Positions 5,967 through 62,479 of a stretch of DNA of 64,000 nt are shown here, piece by piece. The DNA is from Oceanospirillaceae bacterium (lineage in GTDB: Bacteria > Pseudomonadota > Gammaproteobacteria > Pseudomonadales > Balneatricaceae). A model generated the notes under the pieces. The model was given only the letters and a program-made list of their open reading frames with translations, was not told the DNA's origin and searched no databases. The stretch is taken from contig JABXIM010000032.1 in assembly GCA_013373085.1 (NCBI GenBank), forward strand, positions 1-64,000, in the 5' to 3' direction. A program made the translations under genes and the position numbers. Within the stretch, counting starts at the first letter, position 1. Every line of letters starts with the position of its first letter.

Positions 5967-6248
5967 TCAGGACTCGTCTTTGCTGGGCGGCACGTAGCCG
6001 TCCGCCTTGGCATAGTCTTCGCCGCTCATGAATTTTTCCATCTCCTGCTGCAGAAACTCGCGCGTCGACGGGTCCATCATGCTCAGATGCTTTTCGTTGA
6101 TCAGCATGGTCTGGTGCTCGGTCCACTCGATCCAGGCTTTCTTGGAGACGTTTTCGTAGATGTCCATGCCTTTCGGGCCGGGGTACGGCGGGCGCTCGAG
6201 CCCTTCGAGTTCCTGTTTGTACTTGCGGCAGAAAACGGTACGGGTCAT
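5967..6248 (-). CDS. yggX: Fe(2+)-trafficking protein YggX
   Basis: This 93-residue protein starts [17 protein letters not shown], the hallmark N-terminus of YggX with its single conserved Cys7. The family protects Fe-S clusters against oxidation and helps iron supply. The ATG at 6248 has GGAGAT upstream, and an upstream in-frame ATG would overlap mutY. It sits directly downstream of mutY, whose product carries a 4Fe-4S cluster. The same pairing is known in E. coli. Confidence 0.95.
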
Positions 6249-6267
6249 CAGTATCTCCGATCGGGGA

Positions 6268-7311
6268 TTAAGCATTGGGTAGGCATTCCAGCAACCGTTT
6301 TACCGGGGCGGCAAGGCCGATGCTGGATTGCTGGCCTAAGTTATACCAGAGTCGTGGCGCGCCTTCCATGACAGCCCCGTCATCGCGCAACTCGACGAGA
6401 ACCGGCGTGATATCGAGGTGAAAGTGGCTAAATGTGTGGCGTAATGGAGATAGCGGCCGGGCCGAATTTAGGTCTAGCGCCAACCCGGTTTCGCCCTCGG
6501 CATCGCGCAGGTCGGCTGATTCCGGCAGGCTCCATAGCCCGCCCCAGATACCGCTCGGCGGACGCTGTTGCAGCAGCACCTCGCCGTCGCTGTTGCGCAC
6601 CAGCAGCATCAATGTCTGGCGCACAGGCAGCGTCTTTTTCGGTCGCGGTGCCGGCAGCTCGCCGGTACGGCCCTGGGCAAAGGCTTCGCAGTGTTGCTGC
6701 AGCGGGCATAGCAGGCAGCCTGGCTTGCTCCGGGTGCAGAGCGTGGCGCCCAGGTCCATCATCGCCTGGGTGTAATCGCCGGCCCGCCGCTGTGGGGTGT
6801 TGCGTTCGGCGTACTGCCAGAGTTCCTTCATGACCGCCGGAGCCCCGGGCCAGCCGTCGACGGCGTAGAAGCGGGCCAGCACCCGCTTGACGTTGCCGTC
6901 GAGGATGGCAGCGCGCTTGCCGGTCGAAATCGACAGGATGGCGCCGGCGGTGGAGCGGCCGATCCCGGGCAACGCCTCCAGCCCCTCGACGCTGTCGGGA
7001 AACGCGCCGCCGAAGTCGCTGGCGACGATACGCGCGGCCTTGTGCAGGTTGCGCGCACGGGCGTAATAGCCAAGGCCGGTCCAGAGGTGCAGCACCTCGT
7101 CCTGGGGGGCTTCGGCAAGGCTGTGAACGTCCGGAAAGCGAGCGATGAAACGCTCGAAGTACGGAATCACCGTCGCCACCTGAGTCTGCTGCAGCATGAT
7201 CTCGGAGACCCAGGTGTGGTAGGCGGTCTTCTGCGCCTGCCAGGGCAGGTCGTGGCGGCCGTGGCGCTCGAACCAGTCGAGCACTGCATCGTGAAACTGT
7301 TGCGGTGTCAT
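6268..7311 (-). CDS. mutY: A/G-specific adenine DNA glycosylase
   Basis: MutY removes adenine mispaired with 8-oxoguanine. The 347-residue product has the helix-hairpin-helix [13 protein letters not shown] (114-126), catalytic Glu37 in SEIML and Asp138 in LDGNV. The 4Fe-4S ligands Cys192, Cys199, Cys202 and Cys208 follow the C-x6-C-x2-C-x5-C pattern, at the same numbering as in E. coli. The C-terminal third is the NUDIX-like 8-oxoG recognition domain. The ATG at 7311 overlaps the asmA stop as ATGA, so the three genes asmA-mutY-yggX are probably co-transcribed. Confidence 0.97.
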
Positions 7312-9497
7312 CAGTTGCCAAACAGCCCCTTGATCAGATCCTTGGCCTTCTTGGCTTCCTCGCCGAGCCGGTCCTGAAGCTTCTGGTCCACCTCCTCTTC
7401 GACTTTTGCCTGGACTTCCTGTTTGAGCTGCTGCTTCACCAGGTCCTCGAACACGCTGAGGTCGGGGCGGCACAGTTTCGCCGGGGGGGTATCGAAGCTG
7501 CCCTTGCAGTTCACCGGCCACTCGACGCCCTGGATCTTGTTGTTGACCGAGCAGCTCTGCTTGAACAGGTTTTCCTCGATCGACAGACCGAGACGGTAGT
7601 CGAGCGAGCGCTGCGGCAGGTTCACCGAGCCGCGGCCCTTGAGCGCCATGGCGTCGAGGGAGGCCGCGAGGTCCTGGTTGCTGATGACACCGTTGCTGAT
7701 CCGGAAGTTGCCACCGAGATTGGCGAAGGGGGTCGAGCGGTCCACCTGCTGGGTGTTGACGCCGAGGCTGCCGAGGGTATTGAAGCCCTGGCAAATGGTC
7801 TGCGCCATGCTGATGCCCTCGACGGTACCGTCGCTGACGTTGAAGTTGGCGTTGCCGCTGAGGCTGTTGACGATGGCATCTACAGAGCGGCCTCGGGCGC
7901 TGACATCGGCTTGGCTGCTGAGGGTGCCGGTGAGGCGTGGCGGTTCGCCGGTCAGCGTCTGCAGCAGCGTGCCGATCTGCAGTCCGCTGATATTCTTCTT
8001 CACACTCAGCCGTACCGGTTGCTGGCGCATATCCAGAACCGCGCTGCTGCGCACGCCGCCACCGAACAGGTTGGCATTGATGCGGCTGAAGTTGGCGACG
8101 CCGCCGTGGGCGCTGACCGCGAGTTCGACGTCGCGCATGGCGATGCCCGAGGCCGTGAGCTGCTTGAGCCCGAGACTGGCATCGAGTTCAAGATTCTGCA
8201 GCGCCTCGACCGGGATCACCGGCTCCTTGGAATAGGCGCCGCCGGCGGGTTTCGCGTCCTGGGCACCGGTGTCGCCGGCTTGTGACGGGGCGGCCTTGGC
8301 GGACTTGGGCGGCAGGTAGCGATCGGCGTCGAGCTGGTCGCCATCGAGTTGGAGGCTCAGGGCGCCACTGCCAAGATCGAAACCAAGGCGGCCGTTGAAG
8401 TGGCTGTCGTCGAGGGTCAGCGTCAGCGGCGCCAGCGACAGGGTGTTGGCGGGGCCGTTGATCGCGGTGCCGAGGGAAACCCGGGTCAGGGCGTTGGCGT
8501 CGGCGGTTTCCGGCACCGGCTGCCCCAGGCTGGCCAGCAGCGCTCTGGCGTCGAATTGCGCCACCTTGAGTTCGCCGCCGAATTTCGGCGCCTTGAAATC
8601 CTGCACCGAAACCGAGCCGGCGGCACTGAGGTTCGCGAGTTTCAGGCTCAGGTTGTCGATGCGCGCGAGTTCGGTGCCGAGATCCGCCGACAGGTCGCCG
8701 CCGAGGCGCACCTCGACCGGTTGGTCGCCGAGAGACGCGGTTTGTACACCGATGGTGCTGTCGAGGCCACGCAGGCGGTACTGCTGCGCCCGCGGGTCGA
8801 GCTGGGCCTCCGCCTGCAGCTGTATGCTGGCGTCCAGTTCCTGGCCCCCAGCGTTTTTCTGCAGACTGAAGGCGATTTCGAGCGGGAACCAGGCTCCGGC
8901 CTGAACCTGTCCGGTGGTGACGGACAGGTTCAGCAGCGTCAACTGGCTTTGGGCCTGGCGGTCGTCGAGGCTCAGGCGGCCATCACTGATCTGGATGCCT
9001 TCGATGTCGAGGGAGACGGGCTCGACGGTCGGTTCGCTCGGCTTGCCTGCGACCGACGCGGTACCTGGCTGGGCAGCGGAGGCCTCGCCGGCTGCTGCTG
9101 CTGCGGCGGCTGCCGGTGTCCAGTTGTCGCTGCCGTCGGCCTGGCGCACCAGACTCAGATCGAGGCCGGTGACTTCAACGCTGCTCATCTCGACCTGGCG
9201 CGACAGCAGGGGCAGCAGCTTGACGGCTACTTTAGCCTGCTCCAGCCGGGCCAGCTGCGGCCGGTCCGGGTAACGCGCCTGCACGCCGTTGAGCTCGAGT
9301 CCCAGCCAGGGGAACAGCGTCCAGTCGATGTCGCCGTCGATCGACAGCTCCAGACCGGCCTTGTCCAGTGCCAGTTTCTCGATATCGGCCTTGTAATCGT
9401 TTGGGTCGATGAAGAATCCGAGCAGGACTCCCGCCGCCACAATCAGGATGACCACCAGGCCAACCAGACCCAGTATCAGCTTCGCCATGCCTTTCAT
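7311..9497 (-). CDS. asmA: AsmA family protein (envelope lipid-transfer/assembly)
   Basis: This 728-residue protein has one N-terminal transmembrane anchor (about residues 5-27) followed by a long periplasmic beta-rich AsmA domain. It begins with the family-typical [16 protein letters not shown] and ends in a charged, possibly coiled-coil tail (last 60 residues rich in K, E and Q). AsmA-like proteins belong to the bridge-like lipid-transfer superfamily and affect outer-membrane homeostasis. The ATG at 9497 is preceded by GGAGG, so this start is preferred over one 138 bp upstream. An Ala-rich low-complexity linker lies near residue 140. Confidence 0.9.
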
Positions 9498-16765: not shown

Positions 16766-17081
16766 CGAGGATCGAATGCGTTCAGGCCACCATAGACGCA
16801 ACGCCCCGTTTCGAATTGCCCTTCCGGCTGCCAAACCTGTTCGCCGCGGGGCGCGGCTACGCGTAGCAGGCTATAGGGTTTAGCGAGCCTGCGAATTCCG
16901 CCGGGCATATCACTAGGGGCTGTTTTCGCACAATCCGGCGTTGCTCGTCGCTTATGTGGTGCAACCAAACCGCGCAACTCGCGCCTTGCTTTGGGCGAAA
17001 ACAGTCCCGGCAGGACATATCCACAAACGTCAACAGTCCCTGGGCCGCGGGGCTGAGATCAACCCCGCCTGTCGCGGCCTA
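16766..17081. other. Intergenic region holding an imperfect inverted repeat
   Basis: No credible gene lies between the convergent RND pump and elbB genes. The region contains a long-spaced inverted repeat (see 16901-17022), and its G+C is otherwise like its neighbours. No clear terminator with a T-run is seen. Confidence 0.6.
16901..17022. repeat. Imperfect inverted repeat, possible MITE-like element
   Basis: The left arm ends GGGGCTGTTTTCGC (16916-16929) and the right arm begins GCGAAAACAGTCCC (16995-17008). They pair at 13 of 14 positions. Outside these arms the outer flanks GGCATATCAC and GGACATATCC also resemble each other in inverted orientation. The spacer is 65 bp. Confidence 0.55.
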
Positions 17082-17735
17082 TCAAGCCAGTTCGAGCACG
17101 CGGTCGACCAGCTTGCTGATACCGGCCTGGGCCTCGAGCATGGAGCCGGCGACCATATAGGCCGGGGTGGTAACCACTTTCGCCTCGGCATCCTCGACGA
17201 TGGCATCGACGCCGCATTCCTGGTGTACACCGCCCATGCGCTCAATGGCGCCGGCGACCTCGGCGTCGTTGCCGATGGTGCAGCGGATACCCTTGCCGAG
17301 CAACTGCGGAATCATGGCCGGCGCGATGCAGATCAGCCCGACCGGCTTGCCGGCTGCGTGGATGGCGCGGGCAAAGGCGGCAACATCCTCATTGACCGTG
17401 CACTCATCGCCCCTGAGCGCGAAGTCTGACAGGTTCTTGGCAGCCCCGAAGCCGCCCGGCAGGATCAGTGCGTCGTAGTCGGCGGGGCTGGCGGTGCTGA
17501 TATCGACGATGCGGCCTCGCGCCAGCCGGGCCGACTCCTGCAACACGTTGCGGCTCTCGCCGAGGACCGGCTCTCCGCTCTGGTGGTCGATGACGTGCAA
17601 TTGCGGCACGTCGGGCGCCATGCACTGGTACTTGGCGCCCTGCTGCTCGAGGCGCAGCAGCGTCAGCACCGACTCGTAGATTTCGGAACCGTCGTACACA
17701 CCGCAACCCGAAAGAATGACGGCGACCTTTTTCAT
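17082..17735 (-). CDS. elbB: DJ-1/PfpI family glyoxalase-like protein ElbB
   Basis: This 217-residue protein starts MKKVAVILSGCGVYDGSEIY, the signature N-terminus of ElbB (also called GlxIII-type or isoprenoid biosynthesis protein with amidotransferase-like domain). The nucleophile-elbow Cys is in GLICIAPAM, about residue 135. ElbB is a cytosolic class-I amidotransferase-like protein with reported glyoxalase activity in E. coli. Its physiological role is unsettled. AGGAGG precedes the ATG at 17735, so this start is preferred over an upstream in-frame one. It is transcribed divergently from hemB. Confidence 0.92.
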   Translation of the reverse strand: MKKVAVILSGCGVYDGSEIYESVLTLLRLEQQGAKYQCMAPDVPQLHVIDHQSGEPVLGESRNVLQESARLARGRIVDISTASPADYDALILPGGFGAAKNLSDFALRGDECTVNEDVAAFARAIHAAGKPVGLICIAPAMIPQLLGKGIRCTIGNDAEVAGAIERMGGVHQECGVDAIVEDAEAKVVTTPAYMVAGSMLEAQAGISKLVDRVLELA

Positions 17736-19119
<1,384 letters not shown>

Positions 19120-51731: not shown

Positions 51732-52082
<351 letters not shown>

Positions 52083-52257
52083 TCAGGCATCCCCGGCAGA
52101 GGGTGCTGCTATGGATGAGTTTGAACCCGTGCGACGGGCGGCGGGCTGGCTGTATCGAGCGCAGAACCGTCCTGTCATTCCCTGGCACGGACATACTTTA
52201 AGTTGACGCCAGTATAACTGCATTGCGCTCTGGTCGCACAATGCTCACCGGAAACGG

Positions 52258-52288
52258 CAAAAAGGCGCCCCGTCGGGGGCGCCTTTTC
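52258..52288 (-). terminator. Terminator after amtB
   Basis: A GC-rich stem AAGGCGCCCC/GGGGCGCCTT with a short loop is flanked by A-runs and T-runs on both strands. It lies 15 bp downstream of the amtB stop. Confidence 0.88.
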
Positions 52289-52302
52289 TTGGTATCAGCG
52301 CA

Positions 52303-53577
<1,275 letters not shown>

Positions 53578-53618
53578 CTCGTCAGCCCTCCGTTAAGGCG
53601 CGATTGGTAAAGTTATAT

Positions 53619-53987
<369 letters not shown>

Positions 53988-60442: not shown

Positions 60443-60539
60443 CAATCGATCTTGAATATGATCGACATGATGGGTTTTGCGGTGCCCCTGTGATGAGGAA
60501 AACGTCCGGTTTCGATGGGATGCATCGCGCCACCGATCC
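60443..60539 (-). repeat. Dispersed intergenic repeat, copy B
   Basis: On the minus strand it begins GGATCGGTGGCGCGATGCAT directly at the stop codon of the kinase-nuclease fusion gene. It contains GGGCACCGCAAAACCCATCA and ends AGATCGATTGGTTTCGG. With copy A it shares the extra flank GGTTTCGG-TGGCA. Confidence 0.75.
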
Positions 60540-62479
60540 TATGCGCTCCCAGCCGTCACCAGCTCTATCTGGCTATCTCCTGTCGCCTGTCGAATCTCGT
60601 TGTAGAGTTCGTCCTCATGTTCCTCATAGCGCTTCGAGAAGTGGAAGGGTACCAGTTGGCGTACGCCGGCCATGGCGGCGATCTCGCCGCAGGCGCGGGT
60701 GGTCAGGTGACTGTGCTCGCGAGCCCGGGTTTCGTCGTTACGGGTGAAACAGGCTTCGCAGAACAGGGTGTCGGCATCGCGGGCAAGCGCGGTCAGGCGC
60801 CGGCGATTGTCCGGCGTGTCGGCAAGATCGGTGGCGTAGGCCAGCCGGGCCACCGGCTTGGCCACCAGTAGCTGTTGCGCCAGTGGTCCGGCCGCCAGGC
60901 GACGACCGTCCGGCAACTGCAGCGGTCGTTGCAGATCGTCCTCACGCCAGGCCTCCAGCAGCTGTCCCAGCCAGGGGCCGTGCGGCAGGGCCGAGCGCGC
61001 CAGCGCTGCGGTGTCCACCTGCCAGTCCGGCGTCGGCTCGAAGGCGTAGGCAAGCACCGGCGTGCCGTGATCCAGTTCGGTGGCGCGGATGCGGAAATCG
61101 TCCTCGGCAAGCAGAATGCCATCTATGATCGGCCTGTCCGGCAGTGCCTGCGGATTTTCGATTCCGGCCTGCAGACGGCAGCATACCAGCCGGTCACCCT
61201 GCCATTCGTGGATGTCGAACAACGGGCCGCGGTCGTCGATACGGTCCCAGAGCATGCCCCGCAACATGCCGGCGATATGTCCGGCGAGCCCGGGCGGGCC
61301 GTACAGGCGGCAGAGACTGTTGTCGCTGACGAGGCGGGCACGCAGCAGGCCGATAAAGCCGCCGATATGGTCGAGGTGGGCGTGACTGATGAAGACGTCC
61401 GTGACCCGGTGCGCGCAGCGCAGTGGCAGATGGCGGGTATTGCCCAGATCGAACAGCAGACAGCGTCGCGACTGCTGCAGACTCAGCAACAGCAGCGGGT
61501 CACCGAATACGCCATTGATCAATTCGGCTTCGACGCCGGCGACCTTTATCCGCAGAGACTCGCCGGCATAGCGGGGAGCGGGTACCGGCCGGGACGGGAG
61601 ACGGTTTGGCCGTACGGGTTCCCGTGTCGACAGGCCGCCGTTGTCGACCACCGCATCACGGACCGTTAGCCGGTGCGGGGAGCCGGTCAGTGCAGGCCCA
61701 CACAGTTGCAGCTGCAAGCCTCCGCTGGCGGTGTGCCGGGCCGCACGAATTTCGGCCATGGCGGTGGTGCCGCGACGATCGCTGAGTGCCACGATACGAC
61801 CCTGCCAGGCCGATGCCAGGTCGAGCGGCGGCGGGGTTCCCAGCCGGACAAGTTCCGCCGCATCTACGCACAGCTCGACCGCGTTGCCCAGGTACTTGCG
61901 CCATAGCAGGGTGCGCTGGTCGCGCCGTTCCTTCCGGGTTGGCGTACGGCTTTGATCGGCCAGGCGAAGGTCCAGCTGCGGCAGGTCAAGGCTCCTGAGT
62001 TCGTCCGGCAGACAGGTCGTAGCCCCATCCGGAATCAGGTTTACAAGCCAGTCTGGTTGCAGCGTGCGGGTCAGGGCGCAGAGCAGCTCGGCGGCGGCGA
62101 CGCCGCGCACCAGGCCGGGCATGTCGAGCAACAGCGTCCCCGCCGGGGCCTGTGCCAGAAGTGCCTTGGCAGCCTCCAGCAGCGGCAGTCGAAATCGGGC
62201 CGCATCGAGGCTGCAAAGCGGCTCGAACGCCAGTGGCTGCCAATGGGTTTTACACCAGGTGCCGAGGTTGAGCGCGGCCGGTACCCCGAACGAGGGTGAG
62301 CCCGGGTCCAGATTCAGGCAGTGGCAGCGTTCGGGGATCGGCGCCAGCAACGCCGCCAGCGTGCTCTTGCCGCTGCCGGGCGGTCCGAACAGCAGCACGC
62401 GGGCCGGTTTGTGTTCGAGCTCCTGCCGCAGCCGCTGCAGCCCCTTGGCGAAGCTCTGCCGGGAAGCGTTGATGGACAT
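60539..62479 (-). CDS. Clp1/Grc3-like P-loop kinase fused to a tRNase Z-like metallo-beta-lactamase nuclease
   Basis: The N-terminal half (about 25-280) has Walker A GPPGSGKST (32-40), LNLDPGSPSFGVP (55-67) and LLLDMPGLVRG (116-126), in the order of the Clp1/Grc3/Nol9 polynucleotide 5'-kinase motifs. The C-terminal half (about 305-646) has the zinc motif SHAHLDHIGG (365-374), a tRNase Z-like RATELDHGTPVLAYAF (465-480), ATDLADT and a HSHLTT segment, and the tRNase Z hallmark HFSKRY (613-618). A proline-rich linker joins them. I infer an RNA end-processing enzyme. Kinase and nuclease activities are untested. Divergent from the methyltransferase gene, convergent with rep. Confidence 0.82.
   Translation of the reverse strand: MSINASRQSFAKGLQRLRQELEHKPARVLLFGPPGSGKSTLAALLAPIPERCHCLNLDPGSPSFGVPAALNLGTWCKTHWQPLAFEPLCSLDAARFRLPLLEAAKALLAQAPAGTLLLDMPGLVRGVAAAELLCALTRTLQPDWLVNLIPDGATTCLPDELRSLDLPQLDLRLADQSRTPTRKERRDQRTLLWRKYLGNAVELCVDAAELVRLGTPPPLDLASAWQGRIVALSDRRGTTAMAEIRAARHTASGGLQLQLCGPALTGSPHRLTVRDAVVDNGGLSTREPVRPNRLPSRPVPAPRYAGESLRIKVAGVEAELINGVFGDPLLLLSLQQSRRCLLFDLGNTRHLPLRCAHRVTDVFISHAHLDHIGGFIGLLRARLVSDNSLCRLYGPPGLAGHIAGMLRGMLWDRIDDRGPLFDIHEWQGDRLVCCRLQAGIENPQALPDRPIIDGILLAEDDFRIRATELDHGTPVLAYAFEPTPDWQVDTAALARSALPHGPWLGQLLEAWREDDLQRPLQLPDGRRLAAGPLAQQLLVAKPVARLAYATDLADTPDNRRRLTALARDADTLFCEACFTRNDETRAREHSHLTTRACGEIAAMAGVRQLVPFHFSKRYEEHEDELYNEIRQATGDSQIELVTAGSA

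Follow-up and report, generated by a model that had tools for sequence, protein, structure and literature searches.

The window analysed here is a stretch of 64,000 nucleotides (positions 1 to 64,000 of contig JABXIM010000032.1, assembly GCA_013373085.1) from an Oceanospirillaceae bacterium. Its minus strand carries an open reading frame (ORF) whose 646-residue product appears to join a Clp1-type polynucleotide kinase to a ribonuclease Z (RNase Z)-type metallo-beta-lactamase (MBL) nuclease. The original prediction, made from the sequence alone, had placed such a single-chain fusion exactly at 60539-62479, without naming the strand, and the motifs it quoted are present: GPPGSGKST (residue 32), DPGSPSFG (residue 58), SHAHLDH (residue 365) and HFSKRY (residue 613), as well as LLLDMPGLVRG, LNLDPGSPSFGVP and LDHGTPVLAYAF. 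The ORF opens with ATG, and a genome search found one copy of the gene in the window genome. Both halves could be aligned in 16 more homologues that are single ORFs in other genomes (41-50% identity), one of them cut by a contig end. Because these homologues align along both halves and the site residues are invariant, the frame is not a chance ORF. All conservation counts given below refer to the 17 rows of this alignment, that is, the window fusion and the 16 homologues. An AlphaFold model built from the 17 fusion sequences reached a mean predicted local distance difference test score (pLDDT) of 87.5, with low confidence at residues 1-7 and 291-305; its predicted template modelling score (pTM) of 0.62 does not fix the arrangement of the two domains. 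The coordinates of all features are collected in Table 1.

The N-terminal half matches the Pfam family CLP1_P (PF16575) with 36.2 bits, above the cut-off of 26.6, and two relatives score 51.9 and 81.1 bits. Structure searches with model residues 7-280 retrieved human CLP1 in the TSEN complex (8hmy_E, 262 residues aligned), worm Clp1 with RNA (4ohy_A) and Grc3 (8puw_B, Z 21.8). The kinase site is conserved: K38 of Walker A, D58 of the clasp-like DPG, D119 and R189 of the lid are invariant, and the second lid arginine, R185, is kept in 16 of 17 sequences. In the alignment with human CLP1, D58 falls on the Asp of DVGQ. Together, the profile, the alignment and the model indicate a Clp1-type kinase with an intact predicted site, in agreement with the Clp1/Grc3 assignment made from the sequence alone. 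A P-loop domain that is only a GTPase was also considered for this half and is ruled out by the CLP1_P match and the Clp1 fold. The family had been described as eukaryotic and archaeal, which is too narrow, since the available text of PMC6777427 gives Clp1 in 14 of 1,543 bacterial genomes.

The C-terminal half matches Pfam Lactamase_B_2 with 56.4 bits. It scores 276.4 bits against NCBIfam NF002558/PRK02126 ('ribonuclease Z'), below the cut-off of 315, and 108.9 bits against the RNase Z equivalog TIGR02651, below the cut-off of 292.95. Four standalone relatives of this half were scanned and gave 410-464 bits with NF002558, over its cut-off. By these scores the fusion nuclease is best described as a divergent sister group of PRK02126. 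In structure searches with residues 315-646, the top matches are RNase Z entries, two of them tRNA-bound; RNase Z with pre-tRNA (4gcw_A) aligns over 280 residues and E. coli ZiPD reaches Z 26.1. H366, H368, D370, H371, H471, D551, E575, H591 and H613 are invariant. The arm carries PHGP at residue 499 (G501 in 17 of 17, P502 in 16 of 17 sequences), and its family consensus, GLxPGP, departs slightly from the GxPxGP published among the arm and motif definitions of bacterial-type RNase Z (available sections of PMC3161902). Under the same definitions the CCA-guard motif PxKxRN was not found in the fusion, HEAT is reduced to Glu-Ala (CEAC) and HST reads HLT, so that the PxKxRN/HEAT/HST set is incomplete. 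The sequence and the model nevertheless suggest an RNase Z-type nuclease with an intact predicted di-metal site and a predicted tRNA-binding arm, as had been proposed. Glyoxalase II, tried as another identity for this half, is ruled out by the RNase Z profile and structural matches.

Table 1. Features of the kinase-nuclease fusion gene in the window.
Feature	Coordinates	Strand	Evidence
Kinase-nuclease fusion ORF, 646 aa	60539..62479	-	One ORF; stop codon 60539-60541; 16 homologues aligned over both halves
Clp1-type polynucleotide kinase and Clp1 C-terminal region, predicted (residues 7-280)	61640..62461	-	PF16575 36.2 bits; 8hmy_E Z 25.8 (residues 7-279), 4ohy_A Z 25.6
Walker A GPPGSGKST (residues 32-40)	62360..62386	-	K38 in 17/17
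DPGSPSFG (residues 58-65)	62285..62308	-	Aligned with DVGQGSVS of human CLP1; D58 in 17/17
Walker B region LLLDMPGLVRG (residues 116-126)	62102..62134	-	Alignments of 17 fusions and human CLP1
Lid motif RRDQR (R185, R189)	61913..61927	-	R189 17/17, R185 16/17
Interdomain linker, low confidence (residues 291-305)	61565..61609	-	pLDDT <50
RNase Z-type metallo-beta-lactamase nuclease, predicted (residues 312-646)	60542..61546	-	NF002558 276 bits (cut-off 315 missed), TIGR02651 109 bits (cut-off 293 missed); 4gcw_A Z 26.9
Metal-binding SHAHLDH (residues 365-371)	61367..61387	-	Ligands 17/17
Predicted flexible arm/exosite, GP motif PHGP (about residues 482-540)	60860..61036	-	Aligned with B. subtilis RNase Z arm region
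HEAT-like CEAC (residues 574-577)	60749..60760	-	E575 retained, His replaced
HST-like HLT (residues 591-593)	60701..60709	-	Motif search
HFSKRY (residues 613-618)	60626..60643	-	Aligned with HISARY of B. subtilis RNase Z

The fold, the arm and the catalytic residues would also suit an RNase Z proper acting in tRNA 3' maturation, with a kinase that works on unrelated 5'-OH RNAs or is a nucleotide-binding regulatory domain. Such a role would fit the 15 of 18 kinase-nuclease genomes in which the best other match to the RNase Z model is 64 bits or less. In the window genome itself, however, a second RNase Z-like gene (contig C197) bears RYRN, HEAT and HFSPRY and reaches 260 bits with the canonical model, as against 108 bits for the fusion, and near-canonical separate copies are also present in the kinase-nuclease genomes G026 and G473 (260-276 bits for the three, each missing the cut-off of 293). 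Since this second enzyme is far more canonical, housekeeping 3' processing of tRNA probably does not fall to the fusion. Its lack of PxKxRN, its absence from congeners described below, and the linkage to RtcA and MJ1316 in relatives, which 3' maturation leaves unexplained, also speak against this explanation, and we regard it as improbable. Of the roles first envisaged, tRNA maturation or RNA repair, housekeeping 3' maturation is therefore the weaker idea.

The survey of other genomes suggested at the outset was performed on 369 genomes of the class, taken as Gammaproteobacteria and including the window's. The kinase search gave weak P-loop matches in 142 of the 369 at E 0.001, with the fusion type at E 1e-47 or below. 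A single-frame fusion is found in 14 genomes, the window's counted, and G345 and G368 add two fusion-type nucleases in frames that run off contig ends. The carriers with names, on which the assignment of the class to Gammaproteobacteria rests, are Halospina denitrificans, Vreelandella rituensis and two metagenome-assembled genomes (MAGs), one of Thioalkalivibrio and one of Chromatiaceae. Among 56 relatives searched together with the window genome, a full-length fusion was detected in one genome of the same family (G018), and another member of the family (G026) encodes kinase and nuclease as two separate genes with an ATGA overlap. None of six congeners carries the fusion (G001 gave a weak match to another gene only), so it is not fixed in the genus. 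In the kinase tree the fusions form a single clade (100/100) that includes the split G026 kinase, and they are again a single clade in the nuclease tree, a quick tree from which all nuclease supports are taken (Shimodaira-Hasegawa-like approximate likelihood ratio test 100). For G026, fission of a fusion set against an ancestral split gave p 0.246 in the approximately unbiased test. At the sequence level, the kinase-nuclease architecture thus behaves as a conserved family.

The nuclease also occurs alone. A single-protein scan of genome contigs returned no matches; an alignment-based scan did find loci, and the best 80 of its 98 confirmed loci were kept. Among the matches listed, the standalone nuclease has a broad distribution that takes in Nitrospirota, Nitrospinota, Desulfobacterota, alpha- and betaproteobacteria, among others. 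G227 carries a Clp1 gene and, next after it on the same strand, a nuclease gene. In the trees neither of the two groups with the fusions: the kinase sits among other bacterial Clp1 proteins, the nuclease among the standalone ones. By this placement G227 holds a second, independent kinase-nuclease pair and, given this pair and the split pair of G026, the partnership appears to exist by two routes. Across the class, four genomes have a standalone Clp1 (48.7-56.1 bits, aligned over the full length of Clp1), and three of them also have the standalone nuclease, as against 15 of the 365 others; a kinase fragment at a contig edge in G218 (47.8 bits) was counted separately. Behind named loci, mostly from other classes or phyla, 6 of 49 standalone-nuclease genomes encode a convincing Clp1 elsewhere. 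CLP1_P exceeded its cut-off in 9 of 50 genomes, of which six are convincing (96-147 bits, full-length), two are P-loop fragments that were dropped (27.4 and 26.9 bits) and the ninth is the fusion genome G473. The published bacterial Clp1 rate cited above was obtained by a different method.

Genomes that encode the nuclease are enriched in RNA repair genes. Fisher tests, which ignore shared ancestry, gave p 2e-9 for RtcA (16 of 34 nuclease-bearing class genomes versus 21 of the other 335) and p 3e-14 for long-type RtcB (26 of 34 versus 46 of 335). Long-type here means a score of at least 540 bits, the remainder being below 450, a division set after the scores were seen. When the 14 fusion genomes were taken on their own, RtcA was present in 7 (p 1e-4), long-type RtcB in 10 (p 2e-5) and any RtcB in 12. 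Contrasts within 15 families, with nuclease-free genomes taken only from those that appear in some listing, favoured RtcA by 7:0 (8 ties; one-sided sign p 0.008) and RtcB by 7:1 (7 ties; p 0.035). RtcB was further detected in 38 of the 49 standalone-nuclease genomes behind the named loci, with scores of at least 540 bits in 22, counts that have no matched control. Archease adjoins RtcB in all 11 RtcB loci fetched, the window genome's among them; the Pfam Archease match was confirmed for two scanned loci (L191 and L192). MJ1316, a domain reported to recognise 2',3'-cyclic RNA ends (available text of PMC6514570), occurs in 12 of 36 nuclease genomes versus 5 of 44 controls (p 0.017), the controls being hand-picked, non-random and mostly RtcB carriers.

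Physical linkage was observed in addition, each case in one genome. The archease, RtcA and RtcB profiles for neighbourhood scans were built from 9, 5 and 7 loci of this analysis. In G101, the RtcA stop codon lies 40 nt ahead of the first ATG of the fusion; in G108, fusion, RtcA and RtcB are found inside about 14 kb; in G340, about 8 kb separate RtcA from the nuclease. The MJ1316 gene of G239 ends 10 or 28 nt ahead of the fusion, depending on which of two likely start codons is taken, and an upstream in-frame ATG would overlap it. In a betaproteobacterial MAG (L054, contig JACPYS010000041.1), archease (6123-6545), rtcB (6538-7983) and a standalone PRK02126 nuclease (7989-9002) form a same-strand operon with an 8 nt overlap followed by a 5 nt gap. 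The earlier remark that the gene is not near a ligase holds inside the window; elsewhere it needs correction, as the window genome encodes archease-RtcB on another contig, one fusion relative adjoins RtcA and one relative of the nuclease half sits in an archease-RtcB operon. By co-occurrence and linkage, the nuclease family is associated with archease-RtcB(-RtcA).

Other genes were noted around these loci. In G218, the contig-end ORF L192:83-507, about 1 kb downstream of archease-RtcB, is seemingly a broken remnant of the fusion kinase half. Two fusions and two standalone nucleases have a DUF6763 (PF20549) gene directly upstream in the same orientation (L148:10742-11065, L149:2190-2495, L249:10329-10676 and L259:8050-8580; identified by Pfam for the L148, L149 and L259 copies and by BLAST for L249), and a further copy is near RtcA (L256:5821-6279). 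Ahead of RtcA and the fusion, G101 (L146:2221-8816) has a PEP-utilising-enzyme gene, with pyruvate-kinase-like and CHAD genes upstream; in three genomes from a single family, such a gene comes directly after the standalone nuclease (L251:2873-4159, L252:8135-9433 and L261:7646-8935). THUMP-like proteins are encoded just ahead of RtcA in G108 (L148:19034-19639) and, in G239, close to MJ1316 and the fusion (L157:7432-8031); against a THUMP cut-off of 20.6 bits, the former scores 27.6 and the latter 19.3. In the window, an AmtB-like ORF lies between two P-II-like ORFs (51735-53987, minus strand; named by eye and grouped by similarity to locus L144), which would be ordinary nitrogen regulation.

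No conserved neighbour emerged from the fusion loci, of which eight had their gene lists inspected: the most-shared clusters are the fusion itself and ORFs in other frames, followed by a GGDEF/EAL-type protein (named by eye) at six fusion loci including the window. The patchy presence of the fusion and the RNA-repair context in relatives could also be explained by a toxin or phage-defence role, for instance destruction of host tRNA on a signal. One fusion neighbourhood would suit this (L151 of G415), where HicB-like antitoxin, helix-turn-helix protein and C5 DNA methylase genes lie near the fusion (6713-8332 and 16929-18311). PADLOC, however, gives P-loop matches only, at 15.6 bits or less, no common neighbour marks a defence island, the fusion has no match in phage records and viral contigs yielded two weak matches only. 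Among plasmid records 17 match, none covering 80% of the query at any place. We consider a defence role very improbable.

We favour, at roughly even odds (probability about 0.5), a single-chain RNA nuclease-kinase for broken or unfinished RNA ends, most likely of tRNA, in the archease-RtcB(-RtcA) repair network. Several observations weigh against this, besides the post hoc RtcB division, the disregard of ancestry in the Fisher tests and the L151 neighbourhood already mentioned. No repair genes stand beside the window fusion, whose neighbours are a Rep/UvrD helicase and a methyltransferase, and RtcB/archease linkage is absent from the window and from most loci seen. In 76 named standalone-nuclease loci with their flanks, archease was found in L054 only, RtcB in L054 and L086 only (the latter a weaker RtcB relative on the opposite strand), and neither RtcA nor Clp1 kinase in any. 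RtcA is missing from seven of the 14 fusion genomes, including the window's; G123 and G392 have no RtcB match, and MJ1316 was not found in the window genome. Genomes with solo nucleases show the RtcB/RtcA association too, which ties it to the nuclease as much as to the kinase; the kinase may therefore be an add-on. Finally, the window genome contains two RNA_ligase (PF09414) ORFs of 105 and 34 bits (contigs C88 and C117; L213 and L216), so that a healing role is possible there.

Healing would resemble that of T4 Pnkp: the nuclease would trim or open a 3' end bearing a cyclic phosphate, the kinase would make a 5'-phosphate, and a ligase of 5'-phosphate and 3'-OH ends would seal them, one chain thus handling both ends of a broken RNA. 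In addition to the ligase-domain ORFs of the window genome, a match of the nuclease half to the cyclic-nucleotide phosphodiesterase model NF041851 (52.6 bits; cut-off 400) agrees with it. Only 3 of 18 kinase-nuclease genomes, however, have an RNA_ligase domain above its cut-off; RtcB, which needs a 5'-OH, is present in nearly all fusion genomes of the class sample, and the RNase Z arm and fold point to a tRNA endonuclease. Healing for a T4-type ligase is thus, in our judgement, an unlikely function.

RNase Z cleavage leaves a 3'-OH. In the favoured reading, a role in the archease-RtcB network, the RNase Z arm would dock a tRNA or tRNA half, the nuclease would cut its 3' side, leaving a 3'-OH, and might also cut at CCA, given the missing CCA-guard motif; the kinase would turn 5'-OH ends into 5'-phosphates. 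RtcB uses 2',3'-cyclic phosphate or 3'-phosphate together with 5'-OH ends (available sections of PMC3973293). Because RtcB accepts no 5' end other than 5'-OH, the action of the kinase would rule out religation, and the phosphorylated fragment would be withdrawn from RtcB and marked for 5'-phosphate-dependent decay. We infer the substrate, the cut site, the order of events and the effect on RtcB, substrate and order being guesses. By this account the fusion would partner RtcB in quality control and would not heal ends for a T4-type ligase. This role is favoured because 5' phosphorylation blocks RtcB and the CLP1 kinase negatively regulates tRNA ligation in animals (PMC8935212, in the text available), and because a T4-type ligase is so rare in the kinase-nuclease genomes. 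The boldest form of the scheme, in which a bacterial single-chain counterpart of TSEN-CLP1 and Las1-Grc3 would gate RtcB repair through tRNA docking, 3'-side cleavage and 5' phosphorylation, we think somewhat doubtful.

The available text of PMC8935212 calls unclear the in vivo link between human CLP1, which blocks RtcB ligation, and the tRNA-splicing endonuclease that copurifies with it. The fusion, found mostly in archease-RtcB genomes, would offer a compact and genetically tractable system in which to study this link, and would also point to a role of bacterial Clp1 and of the widespread 'ribonuclease Z' subfamily PRK02126. In the full-text literature searched, from which most subscription papers and the supplements are missing, neither a fusion of Clp1 with RNase Z nor a link between PRK02126 and archease-RtcB came to light, and a prior mention is possible in either case. 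In its main text, a 2019 survey of the Clp1 family uses neither the word 'fusion' nor the word 'lactamase'.

Compared with known systems, the kinase half shares Walker A, the clasp-like D-x-G, the Walker B region and the R-x-x-x-R lid with Clp1 and Nol9-Grc3, including bacterial Ts-Clp1, from which it differs by the RNase Z fused on. Kinase core and Clp1 C-terminal region align with Clp1 over 262-265 residues, but the alignment begins at residue 81-86 of the human and worm proteins, whose N-terminal part is missing from the fusion. Unlike other bacterial Clp1 proteins, the fusion kinases form a deep clade of their own, apart from ten others in the tree (100/100). With RNase Z (TIGR02651) and PRK02126 the fusion has in common the metal ligands, the GP-motif arm and the Glu-His pair of HEAT/HST, while it falls under both curated cut-offs, lacks PxKxRN, reads CEAC for HEAT and adds an N-terminal kinase. 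The archease-RtcB-RtcA operon often occurs in the same genomes as the fusion or the nuclease, and in the same neighbourhood in a few relatives, yet neither a kinase nor an RNase Z is named as its component in the available sections of PMC3973293.

Eukaryotic Clp1 and Grc3 partner the RNA endonucleases TSEN and Las1, as the titles of the matched structure entries record. The nucleases of these complexes are of the TSEN or HEPN type. Like TSEN-CLP1 and Las1-Grc3, the fusion would couple an RNA endonuclease to a Clp1-family 5'-kinase; unlike them, it is a single chain, it is bacterial, and its predicted nuclease is an RNase Z-type MBL enzyme.

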